Of a stretch of 64,000 nt of DNA, positions 21,601-63,432 are shown one piece after another. The DNA comes from a virus: IMG/VR virus record IMGVR_UViG_3300021197_000868, positions 40,931 to 104,930 of that record, one strand, 5' to 3'. How positions within the stretch are numbered: the stretch's first letter is position 1; each line of letters starts with the position of its first letter. The notes beneath the pieces are model-generated. The model searched no databases. It had not been told where the DNA came from and saw nothing but the letters and a program-made list of their open reading frames with translations. The position numbers and the translations under genes were made by a program.

Positions 21601-24600
21601 GGGACCAAGAATGACTACAGTGATAAATATACACACGCATATGCAAATGGCCCCAACGGTGTTGCTGGTATACAAAACGCAAATGAGACACTGTCATCGT
21701 TTTCTTTACTAGACTGTAACGCTATCTTGGCCTTCTTCCCCGGTACTGCTTTATTAAACCAGCATCGAGGTAGTCTCAATCCACCCTTCTTTAACAAAGA
21801 CAACGTGCTTAGCCCTGATTTGAAAGCAGGGAGTCAGGGAGTAAATGATAAACATCCCACTGGTACTGTGTATAGTAGTGGTGTTCATCTTCAAGTTCCT
21901 TCTCCATTAGTTCTACGTTTCGCTCATCCAACTGCTCGTTACAGCGACCATGTAACGGCCACTGAAAACAAAACCACCTACTTAATTTATGGACCCGGTC
22001 AAGCATTCCCATATACTCAAGAAGTTTCTACTCCTGTAAATACGTTTGAGCCTCATCCGGGTAGAGCAATAACAGTAGGAAATGGATGGTCTGCTGTGCC
22101 TTACACTAGTGGTAATGCTTCCTTTATGCCTAACCATATCGCTAATCATGATGGTTTTTATTTCCCTGAAAGTTCAACCTATCAATTAGGAAAACATCGC
22201 TTCCATTGGCGGCAAACCCTAAACTGGGAACCGCCTCAAGGTAGGCCAAATGTAGCAATTCTAAAGCAAAGACCTGAATCAGGTCGTATGTATGGTGAAA
22301 TGTTTAACTTAGGTGTAACTAACTTAACCGATACTGAAGTTCACGAATATAGAAAGGCTCACCCTATGAGACATGCTGTGTTTATGGGAGGCTCTATGGC
22401 GAGCAACTCAGAGTGGTGTTTCCATATGGATGGTGGGTATCATCCCGGTGGTACTTGGTTAGATAATCAGATTACTTTCAACCCACCTCATCCTAGTAAT
22501 AATAGCAGGGTCGCCAAACTCTCCGGGAATGAATTACACCCTACTGCATTCCGTGTCGCTGGTCCTTTAACGACTAAAGTTCTCTACGGTGCTTCAGGCG
22601 GTGCTTTTGAGGCTCAAACTTTAACGACATCAGATGTTAACATGGAATACATAGTAGTAGATGGCACTAGATGTCAAAATGGTGAAGAGTTAGCCTGTGT
22701 ATTAGGTGCTGCTATAAACACGTTCCCCGGGGGTGGAGCACTCAAATCTATGGGTGGTACATTCATGCCGAGTATGGGTAATGCTATGCGTCAAGACCGT
22801 TATGGTTGGAGAGAGATAGATGACTCTAAGATTGTGTCTTATCAAAACTCAAACAATGACTTACATGATTGCTTTATAGTCTTGAACATGGGTACTACTG
22901 AAAGCGATGCAAGAAACATACCTGAAACGGGTTGGTTGCGTACCAGCAACAGTTTTGCTACAGGTTTAGTAGCGCAAAATACTCCAGCATTTGCTCCTTA
23001 TCACTCTAGGATTGTATACCTAAACGGCTCAGACTACTATGTTAAGTTCTTCATAGGGCGTAATAGAATAACTGGTAATCTTAGATTTGAAACATCAGCA
23101 ACTTGGGATAACAAATTAGACAGCGCTACTCTAACTTATCCTACTATCAACACTGCTAACGTTGATAAAATATATGTATGGACTAAGGCGGGTGTACACA
23201 CTGTAGGTCTAGACGAAAGTACCACTGAACGTTTAGCGTACAACAGAGTACACTTTAGCGGTTTAGTAGATGCAATTGACAGAACTAAACCGATTGGTGC
23301 TGTAGGCTGGTCCGGCAATCGTTATTCTTATCTCAATACTTTATCAGTAGGAAATGGAATTGCAGCGGGTCTTGGTGCTTGGCATTCTTCATTAGGCTTC
23401 TCACCTTATGGTAACAGCATAGGTTGCGCTAATGCTTTCGGTCATATACCAGTCATAGCACCTATGCCAAATAGTCCTGAAAGTAGCCCACCTAACGACG
23501 GTAGTAGTGCTCTTGCTAATTTCCCTAATGAAGACAATCCTGATGGACCTCATGATGAAGCACAAATGGATTCTGCCGTTACTGGTAGTTACACATTCCA
23601 AAATGTTGAAACTAGTGTTTATCATAACACTCCTATACTTACAAATCAACTTGACTTACAAAAGGAGTTGACACATAAACAAGGTATTTATTCACGTGCT
23701 CTATTAGTCGTAGCACATGAATCAGAATTAGCACTGATAGCCAAGACAGACCGTAACGGTCACAAAAGTTGCGGAGACTGGATATTTTTAGGTAGGGCTG
23801 CGGATTTTACTAAAGCAGGTACAACTAGATGGGATGACCGAATACATGGACAGGATAGGTTCTACGCCCCTGCAAATGCTGGACCTAACGTTGAGGCTTT
23901 GATTAGAGATGGTACGGTCTTCCCTACTATAGCAGACTATACAGCATCTAATGCTTTAGATGGTAGTCCATTCAATGCTGCTATAACTTTACATTCGACT
24001 CTTACTGCTGATACCCAATTAGAAAATGCTGAACCTTGCCTAAGTAAAACTGGTGACTTATTCTTAGATGTTGATAAAAGCATAGGCTCGCACTTTTCAG
24101 CAAGTGCTGGTGCTCAAAGAAATGTATCTGATGGTTTTTACAATTCTGCTTCAGTCGCTCCTTCTTCTTTATTCGGTGGGACTAAACAGAAAAATACATT
24201 TTGGATTGGTGATGTTAATGGCTACGCTATGTATGACCGCTCTCCCGCTGACAACTTTAACATTGAACATATAGTTTGGAAGAGAATGGACGGTGGTAGT
24301 CTATCCATGCCAGCCGTTAATGCTCGTGGACTCGGTGCTATTCCTTTTATCAATCGTGTTAGCGGCATTAACATAGGAGGTACTGGTGAATTAGCAGATA
24401 CTCGTGCTGCTGGTACTGAACGCACTATAGGAGAAAAAATATATGGTAACGTTAGATTCTCGTTTGAGACTACAAACAGCGCCATGTTACCTATATTACA
24501 AGCACAAGAACTATCACATCCTCAACTGGCTAGTAAACACCCTATAGCGCTTCAAAATGTGCTAGATATTCCTAATGAAGAATTACAGTTTGAAGATATG

Positions 24601-27600
24601 AATGTAGTTGATGATACAGGTCAAACACACGTGTTGAGCGGCGGCTCTCCTCTCGGTGTAATTATCCGTGCGTTTAGACCGACTGGAGAGAGGCTTGTTA
24701 GTGGTCTTGCACCAGCAACTGCTAACTCATCATTATCTCCTAACTTAATCATTCAATTACCTGACCCTGATTCTATACCCGGAAATATACTAGTACGTAG
24801 TGGATTTGATAAATTACAAGCATATCAAAATGAAACTATGGGTGACGGTGGTATGATACATCCTGACCTCGGGCACTCACACATAGGTCATTTGTTTGAT
24901 AACGTAGTAAAGGGACCTAGATTAGCCCCTACGATGAATGAGTCAGGTTGGGAACACGTAAGTGAAGGTAAGCCTCCCCCTCGTGAAGATGCTGACTTCG
25001 TAGATAGAGATTTCACTTATCCTGATAGCACTAAGGAGTCATGGCGCTCAGCAACTAATGATAACACATTAGCATCTTCTTATGAATTACATGACCGTAC
25101 GCTCTTTTTCCATGTTACTAAAATGGGACATAGCCATACAGAAAGATTCCCTAATTCTTACACTCACGCTAACGGTATACAAAATCAATCGCTTACAGTT
25201 TCAAATTATGCAAGCGGTACATTAACTGCATCGGCTACTATAACGGCGACTATCTTTGATGCTGATTTTGCTACAAAAGAGCGTAGTGACAATAGGCGCT
25301 TCTTACGCCTTGCTACTACTACAGATAGTGTAGTGTTATCTTACACTGGTATTAGCGGTGCTACGTTCACAGGAGTAGTTGGGGATATTGACTTTGACCA
25401 GTTCATAGCAGATAACCTAGGTACATCAACTATCACCATATCACCATCTTACTACATACCAGCAGGTAGCACTCGTTTCTTCGCAGCACGTAGACTTCGT
25501 GACCACGCTGAAGTTAGCGGTAACAGTCCTGATATGGCTCATACTGAATATATTAGTGGTAATCAAAATACTTTAATTATCAACAGATACAATAAACCAC
25601 AGTTAACACCTATGCCAATGCCTCGCATGGGGCATCATTTCGTAAATGCTTCCATGCCAATGCTACCGGGACATTGGGCTCATCCCGCTTATCAAGGTCT
25701 ATACAGTAAGCACGAAATTGAAACAAGGGCTAGTTTACAAAATCCTGATTTAATAAAACTTTTAGATAATGTGAACCCTACAACTACTACACTAGGAACA
25801 TCAATTACAGATTACTTACATCCACTTAGTCCGCAACTAAGAATTAGTAGTTTAACCCCTACACCTAGTGGACCTAGTGACATACATGGTGGAGCATTCA
25901 CATTAATGTTTGAAACTAAAGTGCGTTATGACGGCTATGGTATACTAGCATCCAAAGGAACTGCTGGTGATATGAATAAACTAGGAGGGCATTCTATAAT
26001 ACTTGAAGCAGGTGCTAACTACACCCAAGATGGTCACTTCCCTGACCCTGCTGAAGTAGGCGCTTATCAGATTGTTATACAGCCTAACCTGAGAAAGCAT
26101 CAAATTACAGGTTTCCATCATAATCATAGCACTGCAACTGCTTTACCTAATGGTACTGCACGTGAACTGACAGGTCAGCAGGTTAATCTTGTAGTCGGTA
26201 TAAAATATGATAGTGAGAGAGGTGGCTCTCCTATTGGTGGGGTGACTCTTATCCTCGCTGAAGCCACTCTTGCTGACGTAAGGGGCTGTGAGATTTTCAT
26301 TAATGAAATAATGTTAGACTATGACCCTGACCACGGAAGTCAGTTTACCAATACACCACCAATGCTGCTTTATAATGCACTTGGTGTACAGGGTAGCGAA
26401 TCCCCTACGTTTACTCGCAGAAGTTTACCATATACTGTGGGTATGTTCGCTAATGCTACACCGGGGTATACATCCAACATACCTTGGTGGAGTATAATTC
26501 ACAAAGTAGGACCTGATGATAGCACTTCTAATGGTTTTACGCATCTAGCGTTATATCGCTTAGATAACTATTACGAGTTCTGTAGGCCCTCTCATGGATG
26601 TATAGGTGCTCAATTAACACTTGCTGGTTATCCTTCTATTAGTCCTGATATATACTCACAAACTTTTGAAAACATATCTTTAGTAGCAGTCGCTAGAGTC
26701 ACAGGAATTAGTTCAGGTAACTATGTAGATGTTGATGATGCTTCATTCTTCCCCGAAGTACCTTACTATAATCAGAAACTGATATACACTGACGCTAATG
26801 GAATAGTTCAAACATTATCATACACTAAACGCTCAGGTCATACTTACTCTAGTGCTACTATGAATAGACCTACTCGATTCATAACAGCAGAAACCACCAT
26901 GCCTCCAATTAATGCTATACTTAGATTATCATTACCTTACTCTACTAAGTTTGCTTCTGAACTATTTAAAGACAATAAATCTAGTGTCTTAATGCAAAAC
27001 CTAGACCAATTACGAAAAGGAACTAGAGACACTAACGCTCTTTACACGCCTGACGCTTTCCTATCTATGTGGCATCCTAATTTGGGTAGACCTCATACAT
27101 TCTACTCCGATGGTAGTAGAACATGGGGTAATGCTACTTCTGATAGAGCAGTCAATAAAGCAGCATACAATAGTATGCCTGAGCACTTTGAAACCATACA
27201 CTATCATAGTGTAAACTATGCTGCTAGTTTAGGTCCTTTCAATCTTGACTTCAAGACACCTAAGCCCCCTACTAAAATTAGTCAAGTTACTACTGGTGCT
27301 ACTACTAACACTCTAACATTTAACACGGATATTCGGGCTCAGTTTGACGCTGGTGACTATATCTTTGCTGATGGTAAGGTTATAGGTAAAGTTGCTAGTG
27401 AGGCATTCTCTAATCCAACAACCACTATTACCTTCTCAGAGAATCTATTCTATACACCAGCAACTGGCTCAACTGTATTCAAAGATGCAGACGGTAGTGT
27501 AGATACCGCTGCTAATATACACGCTATGACGGGCTACGAGGCACAAGGTAGCGCTACAGTCATGCTGAGTCATTACTGGCCTTGTGGTAGTAGGGGTGGG

Positions 27601-29718
27601 CCTCTAGTAAGCAACTTAGAAGGCTATAGTGCTTGGTCTGCCGCTTGGCATATACCACGTAACCTAAGTGCAGCCGGTGGTAAGCACTGGAAAGATGCTG
27701 ATGATGACGGTAATTACTCTGTAAGTAGCGGTCTTGCTATTGCTTCTAGTCTTGTATCTACACGCTCTTATCCGTTTGGCTATCGCTTTGGTCTACGCCA
27801 ACCGTGGAACAGACCCCAATGGGGTCATTATGGTATGCGTGCATTCACGGAAGCCGCAACACATAGTGGTGCTAGTAACTTCACAGTTGGTTACAAAGCA
27901 GGTCCTTTGACCGAGTATGAGTCACAAACTTGGGCTTCCAGCGATTCAAGTCTTAGTAGTGTCACATTACCAACAACCTATGTTGGTATTATGGAGAGAC
28001 AAACTAATTTCAGCGGTATGCTTGGTCCTGACAAAGCAGAATGGCAAGTGCGTTACAGTGATGGTCAACGTATGACTCGCTCCTTTGGTTGCCCCGTTCG
28101 TATCATTCGTAACGCTTCAACCGCTCCTCGTGATTGGTGGGGCGACCATGCTGGTTTAGGAGTTAGTACAGTGGAAGGGGCTGTTGGATATTACTTAGTA
28201 GATTGGTGGGGTAACACTCGTGGTGAAGATGTAAGGAGAGCGCCAGTACGAGGCTTTGGTATCAAACCTGCTTGGGACGCTGGCGACGCTTACGAATATG
28301 ACCGTACTAACAATCGTACACCTTACGCTAGACTGTACAACAATGGCTCACCTATTGTCAACCTCAAAGGTATAATTGACAGTAGTGGTGATGTTCTAGG
28401 CTCTCCTTCAGCAGTAATACCACGTTTCGGTGGTAGATTGAATAACACTAACAGTGGTAACAGCGACATCTTGGTTGATGTATTTGCTCCTACAAACGCT
28501 ATGCGAGTAGGTGACATGGGTGGAGGACGTGGTATTAGATACCCAACTCAATTCAATGAGGATATACTAGTTGAATTAAGCGATGTCTATGAGGGTTCAG
28601 GGGTTGTATTATCTCATCATACTGCTGAGCCTACATTTAGTCAAGGTTACATGCGCCCAAGGAATGACACCTTACAATCCGATGAATTAGAACGTGGGAT
28701 AAGTGCTAGATTAGATGTAGCAGAGGATGGTTTATTGAAACCCGAAGCAGCGGTTAGTGAACGTGTTGAGAGTATTAGTGGGACATCTGTTTACACAGAA
28801 CCTATTTCACGCTCAAGCCCAAGGATAGGTATTGATGGTGAAAACATAGAGTCTCGCTCCACAGGTGTAAGCAACGACATGGTAGCAATCAATACTGAGG
28901 CTCATAGTCTACACTCAGATACAGGTGTAGGACAAAGAGTTGTACTCCAAGGTGGTATGCAGTCCGGCTCTCAGACATTAGCAGATTATGATTTAACCTC
29001 TCTATCATTTGCTGCTCAACCTCATGGTGGTGTAATGCGTTTCAGTCACACTAGTAATATCAAGGCACTAGGCGGTACTTACATTCTTGAGTCTCACTCT
29101 TTCGTTAACCCATTCGATGATACTGGATGGGGTAGGGGTAGTACATCAACTACTAGCAATCCTTACCAAACTAGTGGAAGCGTCTCTAATCCACATAATT
29201 TAGTGGATTCAACGGTACGCTTTATGGTAAGACCTGTAAGGTTACTTGATAATAAACACATTGAAGTCTTTAGGTCAGATAGAAATGTAGCAGGTAGCAC
29301 TCCTCAAGACGGTAATACGTACTACTCAGCCACATCAGGTGGTAAGTATGGGTTATTTGTTTACGAGTCTACTGGCGCTGCTGCTACTTCTTACATGCGT
29401 GCTAGTTTACCTAATGCAAATGCCCCTTACCAACCAGTGTATCTCATGGAGAGTAGTAGCGATACAGTACCTGTATCTAAGGGGCCTAAATTACCCGGTG
29501 CAGGAATGGCTACATTCGATAAAGATACATTAAAGTCCACTGTAACTAGACTTATAATAACTGAAAATACACTACAACATTATAGAAGTGATGCTCTTCG
29601 ACGTACTGGAAGCGGTAAAGATTTCTCGATAAAGCCCCGATTCAGTCAATCTTTACACTCAAAAGGACATAAAAAGGATGTAACCTATAGTACATCAGAC
29701 CACAGTGGTGATGCTTGA
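12655..29718 (+). CDS. Giant tail protein, 5,687 residues, probable host-recognition fibre
   Basis: A single uninterrupted 17-kb gene, over a quarter of the window. Residues about 60-225 look like a LamG/concanavalin-type jelly roll (KEIAIEAWVTPDCGG, then MSKGVVSLHINGELMAE and HVYIGGTGGEF). A second jelly-roll-like region is near 4410-4560 (GGAFTLMFETKVRYDGYG). A Gly-rich segment near 1880-1970 (EGGTGYSPASGL) resembles beta repeats of tail fibres. The rest is a non-repetitive beta-rich chain with many His, Tyr and Asn and no obvious transmembrane segment. Its place between the distal-tail-like and hub-like genes suggests a tail-tip or side fibre that binds host surface glycans. Start: GAGGTGAAATA before ATG 12655; the stop overlaps the next ATG. 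Confidence 0.7.
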   Translation: MPIMLQSNHALFFDGVSDGVIIPQGVFSKLGRDNSDGERNASDIISESSQGARVNSVISDALGKEIAIEAWVTPDCGGVILQKSSQFCLKLGNVDTPGPASFEVNLQTDNGFRKVIISTAREISNGYNGTVYPSTTNNGFEDSFNRFVGSKDDATNLNINQRPLIHIVASMSKGVVSLHINGELMAEETVGRCFLPESDDHVYIGGTGGEFRGVIESVHISSVFSNEMTTRNAALVNNNTLALFRFEEPIEPIEGIYDISSISSASNLSAINVSTSDAALLASKLTGKTITSGTIDFTATPYSSGNYSVVDYKTVPGTKNIRAIPHVPYNLLINPGSINRDTQKPNQSPPERVRLHNINVSTGAILVSSIHLDFDGSTNGDGLRPVLHSRSSGTGDDYFVVVSADLLLDNGSGKPYQPPHLASQLIDRTGQMVLDEGHFEQHGIVFSSRMATTTNDTNNPFAVTWPTTLDESFQIGHSGRHILNHVTGHHYLRNMPRASEENLDQQFGNADIVELIYDGAAQGIEKQFPINSKIDYYRDIAQSRIVDITSSSTVSDSVDNGLADPSRKLIAIGGESFNPMPFALKGPLPLSIDDADDNIRKHHLRPSKTSRVAILEVDLSSYNLASYVEIHYNAIDFTGVSMGKTTPMLMVEKTVPASNHLLTGTTYVIDAIEASLASGKTLHAPGGIIEISAPVQGDLATASFTHSLVGDNSEGFESDSELDERYTPQNYTTMTTEPRRPPQNIAASHTSKESHESVFHHLIIEANNAGKFSTSPRPSASTSSGAAGEFDIAVAASAGPVHEMFDIIDNHATTTPGVQQRIYVQPSDRSRTAQLRHVKAVADNGNDSHFASIMYLMTRGKLRSVIEEEGEDGAERFTTVKCVGINAAIINRNVDEIGSGSPDSHVVKEIDPNAPVVTVTLGGVGQGAYDTNPSFDPSTLSRLPYNTRFGFSCHAVSVRTDRDTTAADRIQFIEVRALNNGADDLKSWGTYPFPKKGRLFLRSGASAEYSNKNGVAFFFEDSDVGSGRFVLSDGSEVANFYEWVGSTGLSSTAGAVSSNSIVNASIGEVILGDGNFYVENATADGSTVNDRMFQSMDTVTHDYQLGTQFASTRALVEIPLFNQQFFKDIPNGILPGPDNSLKLHLDPTMTAHTWNPSPVGRRYQEVSPGDRSAHSAYAYSLSQNNHTRSASIQGEALLDTSPTPDVYKLYVSNPEIFPAADIGSSGKSYFYVDEVQRHQRAFLPNGEWIIYNNDPSSDGFIQFEDALYAHSEKFLETHEAGMQLLVGGGYQSESLIPLVGSFLNPSSSIERRSEYYHDSASVKTQGGNVDYGLRQYVSAVEFKAGPTTNPHAARIQSGRARGQIIGVEPIMNGTTFTGLVVLSLSDEDIVSFPNIQPNIDSNGNIVYETGDYHYLLEIKSPNGDTRRFIYWGDATATFAHLSSTPTSPNDFRSSIIVEDIFNKGSTLPDYYNKTHASYILDQEALLVKRGFMFGFDHDKDSSALEKTLNISDTFRPPTARHPWTIKASPTVTTTALTTTNTTSERLLQADTNSLNVQKDDYVYAEIETISGSTIDSVKFLGKVTVIADGHAQGTPSSDTVLTLDGSMTSAVATAVNSALGDAAKKVYLRVGCHDIMRNDDEAILNRTWVFPYAPGGFRKGDTIWANMTYNNPHAVEGLFAKSRGVFNEALVWKGFNGGLGTMQDEARDSIPLENFLIGNTCRETAENYLQHVNKTIEENYINLLGDNPNAPIVAYLDPTLKGDNHARVLLYDCAHDREFIAFQDLQMQVQTSPKVAEIGFQRHTTGYNLATGGDQIDLVTHNIKYNGGSQNAFMTQIDVANGFPSQNKYVRPTMRSRFMESAYAHDIANNYSASSMQSPVSGIVTSLVTFYPNGAGANGKEGGTGYSPASGLATTTTGSGSGLTVNITSAGGGGTNQGILQIPVINAAGTGYAHDDVITVTQSGASGGKYRVRISPAGIPTNLTASNRLTQYGKGHGHFVHTGYHTGGSFSERAIGDSILPRTQDAVVLPYWANELHKYSRKTRSSLDDFVTKLTIHREAKTGASIRDPSTLFDTPDGTRVIPAFLALRGIRSSSLDLSNMRENRLQHLKHWTDMDFTRRLTIDCGQVGTRDGVTDVEAAAREVVRIINQAGAKNARTNSVNDETGSAHDPAVWWDVDKALDTQDSGSHMGYLRAHLGRVVQDINGNQGYSIIIHSTVPGATGRNFCVWLDNARGQSTYQPEFLIGHGGRFRTFWCQPEEISGENMHPAPMPLNKHGRPFAPITSLRQYTLPDETGTQIKSSNDFAQRGDEESDPINRAISMTTGSGQSHNTVNTESLEVEGYATSFTEGLRVGTQAVARVNLGGLVAAGVPGFAPDAGTWGFGRKSDKRFTKKYGDIAKTQSSATLPTRYSNYIPSNQVTHDSIGNTPLYGFEFKDHLGNRHGIRIVYRSIDEAFTLDETQLPDTLEDEIIIYIDDRDVGQGGFTIGHHMHGLGDATGRFDPNPSNADLIGWRGNRWNGIPSVNAAYDVDVHYSSNTIRVQMRAPYDSCPHPDVLGYMGFPLKNGLIQISDPFNHADAKGTFGHVYSYTHRDVVSGIHYFYGVQGDDFNASQGQAAGVSTVVTTPTDFGNSATSVYIRGLISSCLNWTTLLTDEVLAAAITATINLSNPNVQEGTPFDCREFFAADGRTLGEWGVESDAIRIRAFNTNRNIRPISNFFTASIHRDMSIQAAHIEHGDIEKVEHDGTLGSSNRSATDAQIDAGLRAECGYIPHTIIQIISKGRGSNANTTTPILVDSSNEAVNTDTWSKNLNGARFTAYSGDHILPMVNNPTLEINEITATDVILDSGNELWHFVRPAGAEGAAVTDGGGASITKLASFGSKSLFSYRQDTAFVTSENGANSQTKLDIITKSDDFGTVGSGAADVAQRFADHRCFTTAGVRVLGSLHSTPQVFFRGGRDSSDHWVPLFFGGGFSGVTIDVNDGTKNDYSDKYTHAYANGPNGVAGIQNANETLSSFSLLDCNAILAFFPGTALLNQHRGSLNPPFFNKDNVLSPDLKAGSQGVNDKHPTGTVYSSGVHLQVPSPLVLRFAHPTARYSDHVTATENKTTYLIYGPGQAFPYTQEVSTPVNTFEPHPGRAITVGNGWSAVPYTSGNASFMPNHIANHDGFYFPESSTYQLGKHRFHWRQTLNWEPPQGRPNVAILKQRPESGRMYGEMFNLGVTNLTDTEVHEYRKAHPMRHAVFMGGSMASNSEWCFHMDGGYHPGGTWLDNQITFNPPHPSNNSRVAKLSGNELHPTAFRVAGPLTTKVLYGASGGAFEAQTLTTSDVNMEYIVVDGTRCQNGEELACVLGAAINTFPGGGALKSMGGTFMPSMGNAMRQDRYGWREIDDSKIVSYQNSNNDLHDCFIVLNMGTTESDARNIPETGWLRTSNSFATGLVAQNTPAFAPYHSRIVYLNGSDYYVKFFIGRNRITGNLRFETSATWDNKLDSATLTYPTINTANVDKIYVWTKAGVHTVGLDESTTERLAYNRVHFSGLVDAIDRTKPIGAVGWSGNRYSYLNTLSVGNGIAAGLGAWHSSLGFSPYGNSIGCANAFGHIPVIAPMPNSPESSPPNDGSSALANFPNEDNPDGPHDEAQMDSAVTGSYTFQNVETSVYHNTPILTNQLDLQKELTHKQGIYSRALLVVAHESELALIAKTDRNGHKSCGDWIFLGRAADFTKAGTTRWDDRIHGQDRFYAPANAGPNVEALIRDGTVFPTIADYTASNALDGSPFNAAITLHSTLTADTQLENAEPCLSKTGDLFLDVDKSIGSHFSASAGAQRNVSDGFYNSASVAPSSLFGGTKQKNTFWIGDVNGYAMYDRSPADNFNIEHIVWKRMDGGSLSMPAVNARGLGAIPFINRVSGINIGGTGELADTRAAGTERTIGEKIYGNVRFSFETTNSAMLPILQAQELSHPQLASKHPIALQNVLDIPNEELQFEDMNVVDDTGQTHVLSGGSPLGVIIRAFRPTGERLVSGLAPATANSSLSPNLIIQLPDPDSIPGNILVRSGFDKLQAYQNETMGDGGMIHPDLGHSHIGHLFDNVVKGPRLAPTMNESGWEHVSEGKPPPREDADFVDRDFTYPDSTKESWRSATNDNTLASSYELHDRTLFFHVTKMGHSHTERFPNSYTHANGIQNQSLTVSNYASGTLTASATITATIFDADFATKERSDNRRFLRLATTTDSVVLSYTGISGATFTGVVGDIDFDQFIADNLGTSTITISPSYYIPAGSTRFFAARRLRDHAEVSGNSPDMAHTEYISGNQNTLIINRYNKPQLTPMPMPRMGHHFVNASMPMLPGHWAHPAYQGLYSKHEIETRASLQNPDLIKLLDNVNPTTTTLGTSITDYLHPLSPQLRISSLTPTPSGPSDIHGGAFTLMFETKVRYDGYGILASKGTAGDMNKLGGHSIILEAGANYTQDGHFPDPAEVGAYQIVIQPNLRKHQITGFHHNHSTATALPNGTARELTGQQVNLVVGIKYDSERGGSPIGGVTLILAEATLADVRGCEIFINEIMLDYDPDHGSQFTNTPPMLLYNALGVQGSESPTFTRRSLPYTVGMFANATPGYTSNIPWWSIIHKVGPDDSTSNGFTHLALYRLDNYYEFCRPSHGCIGAQLTLAGYPSISPDIYSQTFENISLVAVARVTGISSGNYVDVDDASFFPEVPYYNQKLIYTDANGIVQTLSYTKRSGHTYSSATMNRPTRFITAETTMPPINAILRLSLPYSTKFASELFKDNKSSVLMQNLDQLRKGTRDTNALYTPDAFLSMWHPNLGRPHTFYSDGSRTWGNATSDRAVNKAAYNSMPEHFETIHYHSVNYAASLGPFNLDFKTPKPPTKISQVTTGATTNTLTFNTDIRAQFDAGDYIFADGKVIGKVASEAFSNPTTTITFSENLFYTPATGSTVFKDADGSVDTAANIHAMTGYEAQGSATVMLSHYWPCGSRGGPLVSNLEGYSAWSAAWHIPRNLSAAGGKHWKDADDDGNYSVSSGLAIASSLVSTRSYPFGYRFGLRQPWNRPQWGHYGMRAFTEAATHSGASNFTVGYKAGPLTEYESQTWASSDSSLSSVTLPTTYVGIMERQTNFSGMLGPDKAEWQVRYSDGQRMTRSFGCPVRIIRNASTAPRDWWGDHAGLGVSTVEGAVGYYLVDWWGNTRGEDVRRAPVRGFGIKPAWDAGDAYEYDRTNNRTPYARLYNNGSPIVNLKGIIDSSGDVLGSPSAVIPRFGGRLNNTNSGNSDILVDVFAPTNAMRVGDMGGGRGIRYPTQFNEDILVELSDVYEGSGVVLSHHTAEPTFSQGYMRPRNDTLQSDELERGISARLDVAEDGLLKPEAAVSERVESISGTSVYTEPISRSSPRIGIDGENIESRSTGVSNDMVAINTEAHSLHSDTGVGQRVVLQGGMQSGSQTLADYDLTSLSFAAQPHGGVMRFSHTSNIKALGGTYILESHSFVNPFDDTGWGRGSTSTTSNPYQTSGSVSNPHNLVDSTVRFMVRPVRLLDNKHIEVFRSDRNVAGSTPQDGNTYYSATSGGKYGLFVYESTGAAATSYMRASLPNANAPYQPVYLMESSSDTVPVSKGPKLPGAGMATFDKDTLKSTVTRLIITENTLQHYRSDALRRTGSGKDFSIKPRFSQSLHSKGHKKDVTYSTSDHSGDA

Positions 29719-55083: not shown

Positions 55084-55350
55084 TCAATCCCCATCGAGCC
55101 AGTTAGCATGTCCGTCTCTATATCTTTGGTAGGCTTCATCATCTGCATCAGCCTTCATCTTCTCATGGTCTACCCATTCAAAAACATCCTTTGCTATTCT
55201 CTCGACTTCCTCTTCGATGAAATCTTTAGCGTCATAAGGACTGTTGACTAAGTCCTCAAACATGTGTTTCAATTCTTCAGCACTCATGTGGTCAGTCAGT
55301 AAATCAGATACGGACTTGTACCCACAGAACTCTAGTATATCTTCTATCAT
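55084..55350 (-). CDS. Acidic helical protein of unknown function
   Basis: An 88-residue protein, mostly helical and strongly acidic (net negative, with runs such as EEEVER and DADDEA). No motif seen. It overlaps the previous gene by 4 bases. Small acidic virus proteins can mimic DNA and block host defence enzymes, but nothing specific supports that here. Confidence 0.35.
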   Translation of the reverse strand: MIEDILEFCGYKSVSDLLTDHMSAEELKHMFEDLVNSPYDAKDFIEEEVERIAKDVFEWVDHEKMKADADDEAYQRYRDGHANWLDGD

Positions 55351-56048
55351 TCCTCTTCACCTATCTGTTCCCTACAATAAGTTCCCCACATCCAAGGCGG
55401 TACTTTGACACCAGTCTCAGGGCAAGTGCTACCAACAAGGACACCTAGTTCACCAGCGTCAGCCATCTCAAACATCTGCTGTCTAGTGAGAGCAACCATG
55501 AAGTAAGAGCCAGTCCAATAGCGCATGAATAAATCATCACCTGCTAACAGGTTGTAGTCATCAGGATTCATTATGAGTTCTTTATCATCACCGTAGTAGG
55601 CTTTGACACCCCAGTCCTCTATAGTAGAAGTCTCACCGTTGTCTAGTAGTATCTCTCGGTCACCCATGTAAGTAGGCTTAGCATCCTCAAGTGGTAGGTC
55701 TGCTAGTCTAGTTCCATCCTCAGTAGTCCAAGAAGCAGCCACTGCTTGACGCTCTTGCATCTCCTGCCTGAAAGCATCCTCGGCTGTAATCGCTGGTGAT
55801 GTAACCATGACATCATCATCAATCATATCTATGTTCACAGTAGCAAACAGTTTGGCTATTCTGTCATGGTGGTGTGTGGAGTCAGGGTGGTCTACTCTAT
55901 GTTCTAATTGTAGAGTAGTGTCGTCTACCTTACGATAGCGACAGCCAGTTCCATCAGGTCGCCACACTGCCTTAGCAGCCATTTGATTAAAATGTTCTAG
56001 CGCCCATACTTTCAGTTCAGGTGTAAAGTCTTCGTTGTTTATATCCAT
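55347..56048 (-). CDS. Protein of unknown function
   Basis: A 233-residue acidic alpha/beta protein with a His cluster (STHHHDR) near residue 60 and conserved-looking segments MGDREILLDNGETSTIEDWG and MRYWTGSYFMVALTR. No known family. It overlaps both neighbours in the operon. Confidence 0.3.
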   Translation of the reverse strand: MDINNEDFTPELKVWALEHFNQMAAKAVWRPDGTGCRYRKVDDTTLQLEHRVDHPDSTHHHDRIAKLFATVNIDMIDDDVMVTSPAITAEDAFRQEMQERQAVAASWTTEDGTRLADLPLEDAKPTYMGDREILLDNGETSTIEDWGVKAYYGDDKELIMNPDDYNLLAGDDLFMRYWTGSYFMVALTRQQMFEMADAGELGVLVGSTCPETGVKVPPWMWGTYCREQIGEEE

Positions 56049-56371
56049 TGGTTCATCACTTCCGTTTTTTCTAGTTCATACAACATCATAGTGTTACAGC
56101 ATTTACCTACAAGGTAGTAGTGCTCCTCCATGATGATGAGAATTGAATCAGTATCAGCAAGGGCAGCAGAACAGATGGGGCATTTATCAATGAACCCATC
56201 TGTTCCACATAGCACTGCTGTGACCTGCTCATGTCCATACCCGCTGGGCAGGTGTAATTGAACATGTCGCAGGTCTACAGAGTGACCATTCGATAGAGTC
56301 CATACTCCATCCTTGCTGATGTTTTCTGCCTTCAAGTCCTCAGTGACAGTGTCTTCATCACTGTCCTTCAT
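56039..56371 (-). CDS. Protein with zinc-type cysteines, unknown function
   Basis: A 110-residue protein from ATG 56371, which overlaps the previous gene by 14 bases. It has CPIC near residue 65 and CC near 91, possibly one zinc site. The start is acidic and the end contains hydrophobic strands (SILIIMEEHYYLVG). No family recognised. Confidence 0.4.
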   Translation of the reverse strand: MKDSDEDTVTEDLKAENISKDGVWTLSNGHSVDLRHVQLHLPSGYGHEQVTAVLCGTDGFIDKCPICSAALADTDSILIIMEEHYYLVGKCCNTMMLYELEKTEVMNQWI

Positions 56372-57905
56372 CGGACTTAACCTCCTTCTTAGGTGCATCC
56401 TTGATAGTGAACGAAGGTAGTTTAGTGAAGTTCGCCTTGTGTTCTGCTATTACTACAGGAGCAGCATTACGATACATGAGCATGAAGTCTTCAGGACTCA
56501 TGTAGTCTTCAGGGTCAACAGTGCCTTTCATGACCAAGTGCTGTGTGTAGTCGATGCTTCGTATACTCCACGATGAGTTGGTTTCACTCTTGTCGAAACC
56601 TTCATGCTCTCTGTGTGCAAAGTGTCCACCGTTTTCTAAGTGAGCAGTCATGATAGACTCAGCCATCGCTTCTGCTTGTGCCTTTGTAGAGAACCTTAGA
56701 TTTCTCAAGATTGTACTGGCACTCCAGTCGTCATTCTCCTTACGCCCCAACACATAGTCCTTGATTTCCTTAGTTGGTTTCCATACAAAGTTCGCTATCT
56801 CATGACCATGTGACATACGAGAGTTGGTTTTAGTATACTTCCAACCATTCGCTATCTCTCCTTCCTTGCGCTTCTTGCTGTTAGTCTGCTTTACGTGAGC
56901 AGTCATCTCAGAAAGCCAGCCCCAGTCAGACCACCAGTGTGTAGCATTCTTACCACGACCTTCCTTCATGACGATGTTGTCATTACGTTTGAGCATACGA
57001 AGTAGGCTAGGTTTGATTGCATCTATTACTTCAGACTCAGGTATAGCAGCAGACATACTACGCTGTACCTCAGACCAAAGAACTACATTAGAGTGGTGTA
57101 TTCCGACGTGACCATTCCATTGGTTATTATTCCAACCACTTTGAACAGAACCCTTACCGTATGCTGTAGCAAAACCATCATCATCACGAACAAGAGCCCA
57201 TCCAGTTGTTGTTGGGGAGTCGTGGTGAGCACAGGTCTTGTCTTGGTCATCCTTCCACTTACATTCACCTTTTGTATTGCTTCTCTTTTGGATTATATTT
57301 TCACCTTGTTTGAAAGTGTAGTCACTATCATACATCTCATCAAGGAGTGTGAGTAGTGGCTTGAAGAAGGGAGTGTCGATTACAGTATTCATACTCACGC
57401 TAAGATGGTGGCATGCTCTCTTGACTCTGAACGTAGTACAAGCACGAGCAGGGTGGTCTTCCGCTATCTCATTGTTATCTAACCACTCACTCAGTGTACA
57501 GTTACTACCCCAAGTTGAAGTATTGAAGGTAAGATGTCTAGTGTCTGTATTGAAGTTTGGACTGCCTACGGTGAACTCAGTAGCATTTACTTCATCATGT
57601 CCACATGATGGCGTGTTAGGCTTAGGGACTGTCCCATACGCTACCTTCCGTGTCATCAGAACTGCTGCTGCTCTAGTGTGTTGGTTGACTAAGTCTGACC
57701 AAGTCAACCTTGCTTCAGGCCCTGCTTTCATGAGAGAGTACGCAACTGCTGCGTCCATAGGCCAGCACTTCTTGATTGCTTTCTTAGTTCTCCCAACCGC
57801 ATGGTCTACGATTATCGGTTCTTCGCTAAAGTCTAGGTTGTTTTCAACCACTCCAGCCTTTTCATATCTGTTCCAACTTTGCCAGCCTTTCCATTCTCCA
57901 CTCAT
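56358..57905 (-). CDS. 515-residue protein of unknown function
   Basis: A large Trp-, Asn- and His-rich protein with several cysteines (CGHDE, SNCTLSEW, ACHHLS, GECKWK, KTCAHHD), some of which could bind metal. It carries PEARLTWSDL near residue 62; the same PEARLTWS string and a 21-base identical DNA stretch occur in the Myb-like gene at 53058. No catalytic motif or family is recognised. It lies in the same operon as the gene starting at 58432. Confidence 0.3.
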   Translation of the reverse strand: MSGEWKGWQSWNRYEKAGVVENNLDFSEEPIIVDHAVGRTKKAIKKCWPMDAAVAYSLMKAGPEARLTWSDLVNQHTRAAAVLMTRKVAYGTVPKPNTPSCGHDEVNATEFTVGSPNFNTDTRHLTFNTSTWGSNCTLSEWLDNNEIAEDHPARACTTFRVKRACHHLSVSMNTVIDTPFFKPLLTLLDEMYDSDYTFKQGENIIQKRSNTKGECKWKDDQDKTCAHHDSPTTTGWALVRDDDGFATAYGKGSVQSGWNNNQWNGHVGIHHSNVVLWSEVQRSMSAAIPESEVIDAIKPSLLRMLKRNDNIVMKEGRGKNATHWWSDWGWLSEMTAHVKQTNSKKRKEGEIANGWKYTKTNSRMSHGHEIANFVWKPTKEIKDYVLGRKENDDWSASTILRNLRFSTKAQAEAMAESIMTAHLENGGHFAHREHEGFDKSETNSSWSIRSIDYTQHLVMKGTVDPEDYMSPEDFMLMYRNAAPVVIAEHKANFTKLPSFTIKDAPKKEVKSDEGQ

Positions 57906-58459: not shown

Positions 58460-58481
58460 CTGCTTTAAGTAGTGAACTACT
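58460..58481 (-). promoter_or_regulatory. Promoter-like element with perfect palindrome
   Basis: Minus-strand ACTACTTAAAGCAG preceded by AGTAGTTC, making a perfect AGTAGT-TC-ACTACT palindrome (58468-58481) next to the TATA-like box. The same 35 bases, including the end of the upstream gene, recur at 62440-62474. The element is about 30 bases before ATG 58432. Confidence 0.65.
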
Positions 58482-58950
58482 CAGTCTCCTCTTCTAAAGT
58501 ATGTGCTTCACCTGCTGTGAGTGTGAGTAAACCACTCTGCTTAGCGAACTCAAGTAAGACAAGTATAGCAGGGTTGTGTTCTGCAAAAGCACCTGCCTCT
58601 AGTGACCCATCGCCTGTAAGTAAACCTGCTAGATTCATTGTGTCCATGTCTAGTATAGCACCTTCAGGGTGGTTCAGTTCTTCTCCTAGTATCAGGAGTT
58701 GAGTCTTATCTTCATCTTCAAAGTAGTGGCGTACTTCTGCCTCTACATATAGTAAGTTACCACTAGCAGGGCTCACTACTGTGGGCTCTTGCTCAAGTAA
58801 CCAGTCAGTAAGTTTAGGTGGCGCTTGTAGTTCTAGTGCCAACCCATACTTTCTGTTTACTTGTGTGCTACCTATACCTTGAACATGTATTCGATTAGTG
58901 TCGAACTCACATCTCACTTGTATTCTTTCCTTTCCATATTGCTCTGTCAT
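58477..58950 (-). CDS. Protein of unknown function
   Basis: A 157-residue protein, beta-rich at first (QVRCEFDTNRIHVQGIGSTQ) and helical towards the end, finishing in EEETE. The 62456 gene also ends in EEETE, with the same DNA continuing into the promoter. No family recognised. It has its own promoter-like element 43 bases upstream. Confidence 0.3.
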   Translation of the reverse strand: MTEQYGKERIQVRCEFDTNRIHVQGIGSTQVNRKYGLALELQAPPKLTDWLLEQEPTVVSPASGNLLYVEAEVRHYFEDEDKTQLLILGEELNHPEGAILDMDTMNLAGLLTGDGSLEAGAFAEHNPAILVLLEFAKQSGLLTLTAGEAHTLEEETE

Positions 58951-59012: not shown

Positions 59013-60113
59013 TCAGTCATAGTCTCCTCTCATGAAGTTCTCTAGTGTAGTACCTTCTAGTCCACCCTTCGGTATCTTAGGGTACTTGGGATTGCCATTC
59101 TTCTTCTTCTTACCTTTGCGCTTGTCCTTACCCTTGGGTAGAGTAGCCTTACGCTCACAAGATATACACTTACAAGTGTCAGCATTGATTGACTCAGGTA
59201 TGTAGTATCGCTTACACTTCTTACACTGTATGTTACCATCCTTGTTAGTCTTGGCATCATCTATGTAACACGACTTGCATTCACGATTCTCAGTTATACT
59301 CAGTCTAGTAAACGACCCACTACAAGTAGGGCACTCTTGATTCACTTCATAGAGTACCTCAAGTGCTGCTACTCTCTCAGGGTTGCCACACTTACAGTCT
59401 CCCTTGTCATCATCGTGAACCCAAGATATGTCACCACATTCATGACACCCTAGTAGTCTGAAGTCCTTTGGTATCTTCAACTCATCCACTGTATCTTCTT
59501 CTTCAGCCCAGTATGTAGAGGGAGTGGGTTCATCATCGAAAGATATTGACTTCTTCTTAGGGGCAGCGAACAGTCGCTCACCTACAGGTATGTCACAACA
59601 CTCAGCCACATACACTTGCTGTGCATAAGTCTCAACAGCATGAGTACAGTATGATGCACGAACCCATTTGATGATAGAGGCTGCATCAGGTTTGACAACA
59701 GCACCCATCAAGTGAGCAAGGATAGCCAACTGAACACCAGTACGACCATGACCACCTACACACTGTGTAGATACAGTCTTGATACCGAGTCGCTTGAAGT
59801 CATCGACTAGAGTGAGCCACCACTGACGACCTACGTCTTGAGGTATGTCAAAGTCAGGCCAGTCCATACTGATGAAGTGTATGTCATTACCTATGTGCTC
59901 AGCGCAACGGAAACCTTTGGGAACTACAGTAGGATTACGCCCATCCATAACTTGAGCAGGGCCCATAGCAACATCAGGGGCAGGTGACATAAGATGCCAA
60001 CCACCATTACGAGTATGCCCACCAGCATGTACACTGATACCATCTACTTCAAACACAACAGGGTTACCTGTGTGACATCCACTCTTACTTACTGCTCCAT
60101 TCATCCAGTTCAT
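59013..60113 (-). CDS. Tyrosine-phosphatase-signature protein fused to zinc ribbons
   Basis: A 366-residue protein. Residues 80-145 have a cysteine-phosphatase pattern: a WPD acid loop (MDWPDFDIP, 84-91), then QCVGGHGRTG with C118 and R124 in the CX5R loop. This fits dual-specificity or tyrosine phosphatases acting on phosphoproteins, although some family members act on RNA or lipids. The C-terminal 150 residues contain three zinc-ribbon pairs (C223/226 with C240/242; C261/264 with C279/282; C297/300 with C316/319) and a Lys/Gly-rich tail. It directly follows a gene resembling PEP-synthase phosphohistidine domains and may act with it. Confidence 0.7.
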   Translation of the reverse strand: MNWMNGAVSKSGCHTGNPVVFEVDGISVHAGGHTRNGGWHLMSPAPDVAMGPAQVMDGRNPTVVPKGFRCAEHIGNDIHFISMDWPDFDIPQDVGRQWWLTLVDDFKRLGIKTVSTQCVGGHGRTGVQLAILAHLMGAVVKPDAASIIKWVRASYCTHAVETYAQQVYVAECCDIPVGERLFAAPKKKSISFDDEPTPSTYWAEEEDTVDELKIPKDFRLLGCHECGDISWVHDDDKGDCKCGNPERVAALEVLYEVNQECPTCSGSFTRLSITENRECKSCYIDDAKTNKDGNIQCKKCKRYYIPESINADTCKCISCERKATLPKGKDKRKGKKKKNGNPKYPKIPKGGLEGTTLENFMRGDYD

Positions 60114-62398
60114 TGTGACCCCTCCTTTGTTTCTTTACCAGTGAGAGCACTGATGAAGCCCTCCTTGTCCTCTTGTTTAGCGAGATACTTATTGAGTACA
60201 CCAACCATATCAGAGTAGTCTAGGTCATTCATATCCAGTGCTGAGTACAACTTCTTGAACTCAAGTGGAGTAGGCATGAACTCCTTCGCTTTGATGAGTG
60301 CTATCTGTTGCTTGACTGATGCTCTAGTCTCTACTACATCACCAACCAACCACACATCTAACTTGGTAGGGGTGAGCATGATTGTCTCAGCACCGTCAAA
60401 GATACCAGCATGTGTCTCTTCAGGAACTTCTGAAGCAGGGGCATTAGCGGCCCATGACTTGAAGGTAGCACAAGTACCACAAGTTTCTACACCACACATG
60501 ATGAAGTTCTTGTTGTTAGGTGAGTTGAACGAGCCTTTCTCTCCATGTCTGAAACCAGCGGGCATAGTTTGAGCAGCCTCCTTGATTACATCAGGTACAT
60601 TCTTACTGTATGCTATAGGATTCTTACGCCACCAAGCAGGAGTCTTCTTCATTACGAAGTCAAGTATCTCATCCCAGTCATTCTGAGGGGAGTCCGCTGC
60701 CTCTCTTTCATCATTACCAAGTATCATTTCTGAAGCCATAGCATACACTGCTGACATGTTCTTGAAGTCAGAGCGTAGATTGAAACCAGCAGTACCTGCA
60801 TCAAGAGCACGCCCACTCAACCACTTGTTGAACAGTTGACCATTGTTGTGTACTGCATTCTCAGCAGTGTTTGCTGCTTGAACTACTAGGTCGAAGTCCT
60901 CTTGAGTAGGGTCGTCCATGAAGTTAGATATTGCTAAGGCAAGGGTCGCTCCCTTCTGCATAGAAGTACCCCATGCTACACCACCGAAAGACTTCGACCA
61001 GTCTTTGTTGAAGTTCTTTGCTAAGTAGGACATCATCTTAGCCATCTGCCTATAGGTAGGAGCGATATGTCCTACAGCAGCATAGTAGTGAGCACGAGTT
61101 GAGTCTAGGTGTGGAGTGTCATTGATTTTCTTCCATACATCTGAGCCAACACATGAAGTCATGGTAGCAAAGAGAGGAGCGCCGGCATTAGTCTTGAGTG
61201 ACTGAGCGTGTCTCATTTCACCAAGACCTAGAGCCATCATTGACTTAGGTAACCAGCCAGCAAACACACCAGCAAGATAAGCAGTGTGCTTGACATCACC
61301 GTAAGGTACACTGACATACTGGTGGAAGAAGGTGGATAGCCAACCATGTTGCTTAGCCCAGTACATGTTAGCATCATTCAAGCCACGCTTGAAGTCATCA
61401 GCAAAGGCATATGGTTTGTATGGCTTAGGAGTAAACTGATGCTCATTGTCAAGTACAGCCCAACCCATAGCGGGTTCGACCCAACGGTCACCGACATTGA
61501 CTGATTCAGTGATAACATAAGGTACACCAACACCACGACAGTGAGCATAGATGTGAGAGAGGCGAGAGCCATTTGGTTCCACTACCATGAACCCATCAGG
61601 ACACTTCTCTTTGGTGATGTTCTCCTCAAGCCATGCGACTTCTTCAAGTCCACTCATGACGATGAACTCCTTGATAACTACTTCACCTTGCTGAACCATG
61701 CCGATAACATCAACACCTTCAGGTGGAGGAGCAACTTGTGTGTGCTCAGGACAACCACGTATTTGTGTAAGGTAGCCCTCTTTAGCCTTGTGTATATCCA
61801 AGACTCTTCTTTCACTCTCAAGTTCGCCAGTGTCGAACACGAACTCAAGTTCATGCACCATTGGGTCAAGTCCCAAAGCAACCATAGCGATGTTGTCACT
61901 ATGACTTGCCTTACGTAAAGGCATGGATAACTGTAGTCCACTACCGGCAGTTACACCATCATGGTCAGGGCCAAAGGTAGCATAACCTATGAAGTCGTCA
62001 TGACTCAAGGCGACTACTGCACTGTTGTTGGCAGGTACGAAAGGCATCAGCATGAGACAACCATTGGGGTCTTCCTTCAGCATGATGTCACGTAGTCTTA
62101 CAAACTCAGCCCTGAGTTGCTGTACATTGTTACATCTGATTGACTCAAGTACACCATGTCTAGGTGTCTCAGGACAAGTCCTCAAGAAAGCAGGGTAGCC
62201 TGTTATCTCACCAGCCGACTCAGCATGTAGTACTACATCTTGTAGTAACAAGGGTATACTCTGTGGTACATCCCAGTCTTGTGGTATACTGAAAGACTTG
62301 TACGCCTTAGTATATCTAAACAGGGCTGCTGCCTTCTGAGACTGTACTTGTGCCAGTCTATCTTTATCATTCAGTTCTTCTAGTGTTAGTTTCTTCAT
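60110..62398 (-). CDS. PEP-synthase-like swivel-domain protein with long unknown C-terminus
   Basis: A 762-residue protein. Residues 268-310 look like the phosphohistidine swivel domain of PEP synthase, PPDK and rifampin phosphotransferase: PNGSRLSHIYAHCRGVGVPYV (276-296, split here as PNGSRLSHIY and AHCRGVGVPYV), with H282 as the likely phosphoacceptor. Residues 70-190 resemble part of the ATP-grasp half (LRTCPETPRHGVLES; LMLMPFVPANNSAVV). A PEP-binding TIM barrel is not seen. The C-terminal 450 residues are unknown, with CGVETCGTC near 645. It might phosphorylate a small molecule or protein; the downstream gene carries a phosphatase signature. Confidence 0.5.
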   Translation of the reverse strand: MKKLTLEELNDKDRLAQVQSQKAAALFRYTKAYKSFSIPQDWDVPQSIPLLLQDVVLHAESAGEITGYPAFLRTCPETPRHGVLESIRCNNVQQLRAEFVRLRDIMLKEDPNGCLMLMPFVPANNSAVVALSHDDFIGYATFGPDHDGVTAGSGLQLSMPLRKASHSDNIAMVALGLDPMVHELEFVFDTGELESERRVLDIHKAKEGYLTQIRGCPEHTQVAPPPEGVDVIGMVQQGEVVIKEFIVMSGLEEVAWLEENITKEKCPDGFMVVEPNGSRLSHIYAHCRGVGVPYVITESVNVGDRWVEPAMGWAVLDNEHQFTPKPYKPYAFADDFKRGLNDANMYWAKQHGWLSTFFHQYVSVPYGDVKHTAYLAGVFAGWLPKSMMALGLGEMRHAQSLKTNAGAPLFATMTSCVGSDVWKKINDTPHLDSTRAHYYAAVGHIAPTYRQMAKMMSYLAKNFNKDWSKSFGGVAWGTSMQKGATLALAISNFMDDPTQEDFDLVVQAANTAENAVHNNGQLFNKWLSGRALDAGTAGFNLRSDFKNMSAVYAMASEMILGNDEREAADSPQNDWDEILDFVMKKTPAWWRKNPIAYSKNVPDVIKEAAQTMPAGFRHGEKGSFNSPNNKNFIMCGVETCGTCATFKSWAANAPASEVPEETHAGIFDGAETIMLTPTKLDVWLVGDVVETRASVKQQIALIKAKEFMPTPLEFKKLYSALDMNDLDYSDMVGVLNKYLAKQEDKEGFISALTGKETKEGSQ

Positions 62399-62460: not shown

Positions 62461-62929
62461 CAGTCTCCTCTTCTTGATTATAATTTAGTACCTTGTTGAC
62501 CCATGACCCATCATCTATAGCCTCGTCTGATGAAACCTGAACGTACATTCGTAGGGTTAGTGGAGGGTGTTTAGCACCCTCTACCATCTTCCGATACTTG
62601 TTGAGTCTTCTTTGCGTCTTCTGTCCGTAAGACCATGTGTAACCGTAGCCACCTACAATCCATATCATCTCATCGTTGGATAGGTCAGTTGCTTTAGTCT
62701 TCTTAGTCTTGGTAAACAAAGCACCTACCTGACAGTTATGGATGTCACGAGTCAACATTCTATCTATGTCTTTGCGAAAGTCAGCAGTGTATAGATTTGA
62801 AAGGTCACAGTTGTCTAAGAACTTAGTAAGTGACTCCTCATTTATCTTGCCAGTAAGAAGTATACTATTCTCATGTTTCTCTATAGATACGGTACTATCG
62901 TTGTCGTCGTTGTCTTCTCTCACAGTCAC
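62456..62929 (-). CDS. Protein of unknown function
   Basis: A 157-residue protein from GTG 62929, chosen because GGAGGTGA sits 4 bases before it and GTGA overlaps the previous stop. It starts acidic (REDNDDNDS), has an alpha/beta middle (ENSILLTGKINEESLTKFL) and ends EEETE like the gene at 58477. No family recognised. Confidence 0.35.
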   Translation of the reverse strand: MTVREDNDDNDSTVSIEKHENSILLTGKINEESLTKFLDNCDLSNLYTADFRKDIDRMLTRDIHNCQVGALFTKTKKTKATDLSNDEMIWIVGGYGYTWSYGQKTQRRLNKYRKMVEGAKHPPLTLRMYVQVSSDEAIDDGSWVNKVLNYNQEEETE

Positions 62930-63432
62930 GCCGTCACCTCCACGCCTTGCCACCAGTCGGGAGTAGGTGTGCCCTTCTCCCACTTGGCGAACTGCTTGCT
63001 GTGGTAGTAGGCTCGGTAAGCCTTGACAGGATTGTCGTCTTTGTATTCGTCAGGCATAGCCTGAGCAGGTGGAGTAAGATGTCCGAAAGGTATCAGTCCT
63101 GATAACCGAACCATGTCTAGGATTGGTTGCTGGCAAGCGTGCTCTTTTTTGAACCGCATCTGATATTCACGACACAAAGCAGTACCATGTACTAACAACC
63201 AGTGGAAGTTACCGAAGTTAGTAGATGCCCACACTGTACATGGATGATGCTTGTAGCCTCCTTTGTAAGGAGTCCCTGACTTAGTGAGTGGCATTTGTTT
63301 ATCAGTAGCACCGTGAGTACGTAGGGCTGATGCTAACATCTGTGCTGCTTCGACACACATCTTAGGAACATGCTTGTCGCAGTGCATCTGTGCTGCTTTC
63401 CAAGGGTCTGTATGTAGATAAAAGATATTCAT
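62926..63432 (-). CDS. Conserved virus protein, function uncertain
   Basis: A 168-residue protein starting MNIFYLHTDPWKAAQMHCDK. The pattern 'DTDP..AA..HCDKH..KM..E.AQML' followed by 'HPC..W...' (HHPCTVWASTNFGNFHWLL) and 'EY..R..K.HA' is familiar from proteins of many marine phages, where the function is not settled; some are labelled DNA glycosylase. The conserved His, Cys, Asp and Trp suggest an enzyme or metal site. I make no firm functional call. Confidence 0.5.
   Translation of the reverse strand: MNIFYLHTDPWKAAQMHCDKHVPKMCVEAAQMLASALRTHGATDKQMPLTKSGTPYKGGYKHHPCTVWASTNFGNFHWLLVHGTALCREYQMRFKKEHACQQPILDMVRLSGLIPFGHLTPPAQAMPDEYKDDNPVKAYRAYYHSKQFAKWEKGTPTPDWWQGVEVTA

Follow-up and report, generated by a model that had tools for sequence, protein, structure and literature searches.

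A candidate viral phosphotransfer module: a dikinase-like fusion protein and its phosphatase partner in a putative archaeal virus and in tailed phages

The gene pair and its products

Two overlapping genes of an uncultured virus encode what may be the two halves of a phosphate-transfer system. They lie in a window of 64,000 bases, i.e. bases 40931-104930 of the 104,930-base IMG/VR record IMGVR_UViG_3300021197_000868. The upstream gene encodes P0002, a predicted fusion of a compact ATP-grasp, a phosphohistidine swivel and a domain that we call HYP after its family of phage proteins; the downstream gene encodes P0001, a member of the protein tyrosine phosphatase (PTP) superfamily (Table 1). Both open reading frames are at the positions given in the initial annotation; they are on the minus strand, comprise 366 (P0001) and 762 codons (P0002), and share four bases, ATGA, in which the stop of one is the start of the other. 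The same overlap is present in most relatives, and the two homologs are adjacent at every locus found. Both genes are under purifying selection: pairwise ratios of nonsynonymous to synonymous substitutions (dN/dS) against relatives lie at 0.10-0.33, values that are inexact, with synonymous distances to some relatives near saturation, and are to be read as 'purifying'. Taken with the adjacency at all loci, these ratios indicate that the pair is more than a chance arrangement.

Table 1. Positions of the gene pair, its domains and the adjacent gene in the window (aa, amino acids)
Feature	Position	Strand	Basis
P0001, 366 aa: PTP-superfamily phosphatase (PTP2 type) with C-terminal zinc-ribbon region	59013..60113	-	Pfam PF00102 in 20 of 24 homologs
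PTP signature loop, C118-X5-R124	59742..59762	-	invariant, 24 homologs
Cys-pair region C223 to C319, at most three zinc ribbons	59157..59447	-	sequence; Zn_ribbon_Elf1 matches in two homologs
P0002, 762 aa: predicted fusion of compact ATP-grasp, phosphohistidine swivel and HYP domain	60110..62398	-	open reading frame; AlphaFold pLDDT 83, pTM 0.79
ATGA stop/start overlap, couples the P0002 and P0001 genes	60110..60113	-	sequence
Predicted ATP-grasp domain, P0002 residues 1-222	61733..62398	-	PDB fold matches; residue counts in 28 homologs
Phosphohistidine swivel-like domain, P0002 residues 226-318 (H282 codon 61553-61555)	61445..61723	-	H282 conservation, PF00391, predicted secondary structure
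C-terminal region with HYP domain, P0002 residues 319-762	60113..61444	-	profile match to phrog_20946; invariant residues
157-aa protein, family unknown	58477..58950	-	next gene downstream of PTP; 22 of 22 sampled archaeal-virus loci

The window also encodes a thermosome-like chaperonin, a family B DNA polymerase, a sliding clamp and a clamp loader, as read from the translations, and the major capsid protein is closest to those of the haloarchaeal tailed viruses HVTV-1 and HCTV-1 (32-34% over 99%). This gene content and the capsid similarity fit the magroviruses, a marine group of archaeal viruses that stands close to the Druskaviridae in the ICTV profile (PMC10768690), and we infer an archaeal host. 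The open-access magrovirus paper does not mention the P0001/P0002 pair.

Judged by its invariant catalytic residues and profile matches, P0001 is a PTP-superfamily enzyme. The WPD loop and CX5R signature noticed initially are there as DWPD (D84-D87) and C118-VGGHG-R124; C118, R124, P86, D87, Q165 and Q166 are the same in all 24 relatives, and W85 is nearly invariant. On its own P0001 matches Pfam Y_phosphatase (PF00102) at E=0.0028, under the Pfam cut-off, while 20 of the 24 relatives match it (best 2e-5), and the P0001 profile matches solved PTPs in the PDB (E=0.004). The family thus shares the C-X5-R loop, the WPD aspartate and the Q-loop with PTP and dual-specificity phosphatases (PF00102, PTP-SAK), but it differs from these in a Gln instead of a His preceding the catalytic Cys, in the P-loop GGHGRT, in a conserved N-terminal region and in a zinc-ribbon tail, and appears to be a virus-specific subfamily tied to HYP. 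As to the tail, the three zinc-ribbon pairs proposed earlier hold in part: six Cys pairs (223/226, 240/242, 261/264, 279/282, 297/300, 316/319) may form three ribbons, but their cysteines are partly lost among distant relatives.

The AlphaFold model of P0002, built from 22 homologs, matches synapsin, Ddl, RimK and LysX in the PDB (E 4e-4 to 4e-3, prob 1.00). It also matches rifampin phosphotransferase (RPH; 5hv1, 5fbs) at E ~9e-4 over ~790 aligned columns, with domains that fail to superpose as a single rigid unit (root-mean-square deviation ~25). Sequence searches of P0002 against the PDB gave no meaningful match, and among viral predicted structures the model found generic ATP-grasp matches, none at E<=0.001. 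In the 28 homologs, K22, R73, R80, E185, Q212 and R214 are kept in every covering sequence, and D147 and E183 are near-invariant. From the predicted fold and these residues we read the N-terminus as a compact ATP-grasp that keeps its catalytic positions, a better description than the 'partial ATP-grasp-like half' of the initial annotation, which had recognized the fold. The order and context of the motifs in P0002 correspond to those in phage pyruvate phosphate dikinase (PPDK) as QKA/GGKG, FLR/SVR, HDGVTAG/GEDVVAG, ELEF/DVEF, TQIR/LQTR and LSH/TSH, a correspondence seen by inspection and not in a significant alignment.

The swivel-like motif, likewise noticed earlier, is present as LSHIYAHCRGVGVP. 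Its S281-H282 is invariant in all 27 relatives covering those positions, and H282 opens a predicted helix in the model. Pfam PEP-utilizers (PF00391), the swivel family, gives weak matches (best E=0.0097) in 6 of 22 relatives and none in P0002 itself. The description of P0002 as a swivel enzyme holds for these two domains; it had left out a further C-terminal domain of ~440 residues.

This C-terminal region carries the motifs GEMRHA, FGGVAWG and HNNGQLFNKW and a putative metal site of H618, C635, C640 and C643. Common to it and to a ~340-residue phage protein, phrog_20946 (HYP), are GEMRH, FGG.AWG and HNNG..FNK, and the two are related by profile comparison (prob 96.5, P=8.6e-10 with five phage sequences; prob 97.5, P=5.2e-12 by hhalign with 67). 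The features E-x-R-H/Y, GG..W and HN.G of phrog_20946 are kept across the 28 P0002 homologs. The AlphaFold model of HYP is all-helical (pLDDT 93.6, pTM 0.88), as is the predicted C-terminus of P0002, and no PDB structure matches the fold of the HYP model (best E=1.4, prob 0.04). We found neither a consistently matching Pfam family nor an NCBIfam family or PDB sequence match for HYP. Its polar residues that are invariant or nearly so (E107, R109, H110, W183, D205, H212, N213, N219, K220 and Q238 in a DLP5-like sequence) look like an active site.

A fixed gene set in bacterial phages

Is the pair restricted to this group of viruses? A tblastn search with P0001 gave matches in Vibrio, Stenotrophomonas, Rhizobium and Rhodobacter phages, and in five of five phages examined a 'pyruvate phosphate dikinase' was encoded directly upstream. 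Single-sequence searches of viral contigs with the upstream proteins found no match; alignment queries were needed. Searching 2.9 million viral contigs for HYP yielded 80 loci, of which 58, many of them uncultured, had enough flanking sequence for testing, and all 58 contained a dikinase, a first phosphatase (PTP1), HYP and a second phosphatase (PTP2). Many of the 80 loci are from related viruses, and 58 of 58 does not mean 58 independent events. In the INPHARED collection, 41 phage records contain HYP, and among ~85,000 prokaryote genomes scanned there were only seven HYP loci, all with the same block, which we read as proviruses or virus contigs.

Independent evidence for the module comes from its recurrence in the archaeal viruses and in a third lineage, the Manatee Spring phages, in which a dikinase-like part is fused to HYP and a PTP follows. 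HYP is thus fused in these two groups and free-standing in bacterial phages. The archaeal virus, in turn, keeps the PTP2-type phosphatase: P0001 matches the phage PTP cluster at P=1.4e-22, and its P-loop, CVGGHGRT, is that of PTP2 (GC[I/V/L]GGHGRT in nearly all), unlike that of PTP1 (mostly GCMGG[W/I]GRT). When all conserved neighbours were compared by profile between archaeal-virus and phage blocks, only PTP and HYP were common to both, which argues that the unit consists of these parts and does not reflect general synteny.

The phage dikinases are true homologs of PPDK. The four scanned match PF01326 (E~1e-40 to 1e-50) and PF00391 (E 1e-15 to 1e-25), and the one aligned to PPDK covers residues ~14-530, i.e. 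ATP-grasp and swivel, at E~1e-120 and ends there. The barrel domain for phosphoenolpyruvate (PEP) and pyruvate was found neither in these four nor in P0002. Consistent with its absence, the published dikinase of Vibrio phage J26 fully overlaps PPDK over residues 1-527 only (PMC12038007). J26 and Stenotrophomonas phage DLP3 (PMC7326821) are among the phages with published annotations; the Vibrio and Stenotrophomonas papers list 'PPDK' and 'tyrosine phosphatase' as separate genes. The earlier statement that no such viral pair has been described therefore needs qualification: its components were already listed, but we found no open-access text that links phage PPDK with tyrosine phosphatase or recognizes HYP as a third component.

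Two database labels in these blocks deserve mention. The cluster phrog_17568 (e.g. DLP5, L007:7782-8252 and L007:9307-10095) is called 'thymidylate synthase' in PHROGs and on RefSeq phage genes. We rejected this label, as the members match PTP-superfamily phosphatases; it is likely a propagated annotation error. Of the 80 phage loci, 62 have the cluster of a 284-residue protein (phrog_25950; L008:9394-10248) after the module; neither Pfam nor NCBIfam supports the label 'pyruvate decarboxylase' that this neighbour bears in Vibrio phages.

Around the archaeal-virus pair, the 157-residue protein next to P0001 (Table 1) has no match in Pfam, PHROGs, NCBIfam or PADLOC and no counterpart among the bacterial-phage blocks, a profile comparison with the phage neighbours being negative. 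Further downstream, genes of unknown function (window positions 56358-57905, 55347-56048 and 56039-56398) are kept in 16-18 of 22 archaeal-virus loci, which suggests a longer operon. On the other side, positions 62926-63432 encode a 168-residue protein that matches phrog_624 ('DNA binding protein', E=5e-58). Elsewhere in the window, 12655-29718 is one open frame of 5687 codons, an exceptional size for a tailed virus.

A proposed reaction and its alternatives

In PEP synthase, PPDK and RPH, the ATP-grasp phosphorylates the histidine of the swivel, which then moves to a second site, and in PPDK this second site is the domain that follows the swivel. P0002 shares a predicted ATP-grasp followed by a putative swivel with phosphohistidine, although it is too divergent from PPDK to be detected by sequence; the module differs in having no PEP/pyruvate TIM barrel, with HYP at the acceptor position, fused in P0002 and as a separate gene in the phages. 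Since HYP follows the swivel in P0002 as the second site does in PPDK, the most economical interpretation places the acceptor on HYP. RPH, the best multi-domain fold match, also combines ATP-grasp and swivel, has no PEP barrel and phosphorylates a non-PEP substrate. However, its swivel is C-terminal, whereas that of P0002 comes directly after the ATP-grasp and before HYP; the rifampin-binding domain of RPH is replaced by HYP, and a PTP partner is added.

What the sequences show is the domain make-up within the limits given above, the conserved residues, the fused or separate genes and the fixed gene set; catalysis, the order and direction of transfer and a coupling of dikinase and phosphatase are what we infer. 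We propose that the ATP-grasp splits ATP and phosphorylates H282 of the swivel, that the swivel moves the phosphate to HYP, which would hold the substrate, and that P0001 strips phosphate from the product or an intermediate, thereby resetting or completing the reaction. The account we favour, and consider slightly more probable than not, is that a viral phosphotransfer module of this kind is widespread and that P0002 and P0001 represent it in archaeal viruses. More tentatively, and with slightly less than even confidence, we suggest a hitherto unrecognized virus-only system of bacterial and archaeal tailed viruses, in which a swivel-histidine dikinase, a new all-helical acceptor domain with an enzyme fold and a dedicated PTP would yield a phosphorylated product, be it a metabolite, a nucleotide or a modified macromolecule. 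The pairing of a phosphatase with a putative ATP-grasp/swivel protein, adjacent in all relatives, and the conserved catalytic C, R and H agree with the initial annotation, and none of the contrary outcomes that it had named was seen.

Several observations weigh against this account. A profile search with residues 1-325 of P0002 against the phage dikinases scored no better than shuffled sequences, and hhalign of the N-terminal part aligned the swivel motif only (P~0.005). The dikinase assignment is therefore based on the fold, the pattern of residues and the fusion of the genes, and the putative swivel is drawn from the whole-protein model, the conservation of H282 and the weak PF00391 matches. 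Catalysis by the module is likewise argued from fold, residues and the chemistry of PPDK and RPH, and the position of HYP in the chain suggests acceptor binding by analogy and does not prove it. Finally, the 595-kb genome of an uncultured phage, LR756511.1, has two HYP-domain proteins and no detectable PPDK_N or Y_phosphatase, which indicates that HYP can act without the other parts. These two proteins are large and encoded in tandem (L141:7386-12397); the N-termini of these and of neighbouring proteins (e.g. MKTFAEWIVEK) appear to resemble capsid-targeting leaders of the T4 type.

What else could the module do? It may make or trim a modified nucleotide in viral DNA, with the dikinase phosphorylating a base or nucleotide, HYP processing it and PTP dephosphorylating it, to give restriction-resistant DNA. 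Indeed, DNA of the module-bearing phages DLP5 and DLP3 was cut by only 4 of 36 (PMC5834331) and 0 of 15 enzymes (PMC7326821), respectively, and the phage block lies near genes for terminase, DNA polymerase I and portal. However, resistance to restriction is found in many S. maltophilia phages, DLP4 included, and DLP5 and DLP3 also carry sugar-modifying genes (PIG-L/WecE-type and a glycosyltransferase, respectively). Moreover, the ends of clone PH102 from Vibrio phage VHS1, whose genome encodes HYP, coincide exactly with an XbaI site at the start and an EcoRI site at the finish; two enzymes that do not cut DLP3 thus seem able to cleave VHS1 DNA, although the record also has two internal EcoRI sites. 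ThyA or ThyX was not found in the present virus record. With the evidence mixed, we regard DNA modification as unlikely, if the strongest of the alternatives.

Alternatively, the pair could act as kinase and phosphatase on host or viral proteins or polymers during host takeover, with HYP as a targeting domain and not an acceptor site. Plants provide a precedent, in which glucan water dikinase and the PTP-superfamily phosphatases SEX4 and LSF2 act on one target. The zinc ribbons of P0001 could aim the phosphatase, and one phage dikinase has a sub-threshold match to GWD1_pHisD (E=0.06). The likeness is an analogy of dikinase and PTP pairing, as the present system is viral and has HYP as a third component. 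No carbohydrate-binding domain, glucan-binding ones included, was detected, and the invariant polar residues of HYP (E, R, H, W, D, H, N, K, Q) are enzyme-like and exceed the needs of a docking domain. We therefore judge host takeover improbable, somewhat more so than DNA modification.

A catalytically dead N-terminus, acting as a nucleotide sensor or as a scaffold for HYP beside a PTP with an unrelated target, would account for an ATP-grasp that is far smaller than that of PPDK and beyond sequence detection. Dead domains, though, usually lose their catalytic residues first, whereas K22, R73, R80, E185, Q212, R214 and H282 are kept in every covering homolog, and the Manatee Spring protein retains K, R, E, Q, R and H at ~26% identity. 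We consider this very unlikely. That the dikinase interconverts pyruvate and PEP as an auxiliary metabolic gene feeding host energy metabolism, as annotation and docking proposed for phage J26 (PMC12038007) and as sequence similarity to PPDK might suggest, is scarcely credible and not supported by the sequences, given that the similarity ends at PPDK residue ~530 before the missing barrel and that the invariant coupling to HYP and PTPs would go unexplained. A defence system was also set aside, PADLOC having no match for any component.

Implications for viral phosphotransfer

If the favoured account is true, it would correct the standing annotation of phage 'PPDK' as a carbon-metabolism gene, and three proteins that have been listed separately would become one virus-specific enzyme system. 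There would also be a confident model of the HYP family, which has no known fold and clear active-site-like residues. Cultured Vibrio and Stenotrophomonas phages allow direct tests of the module. As all 58 testable phage loci keep the gene set and archaeal viruses have it in fused form, what it does is probably of importance for infection.

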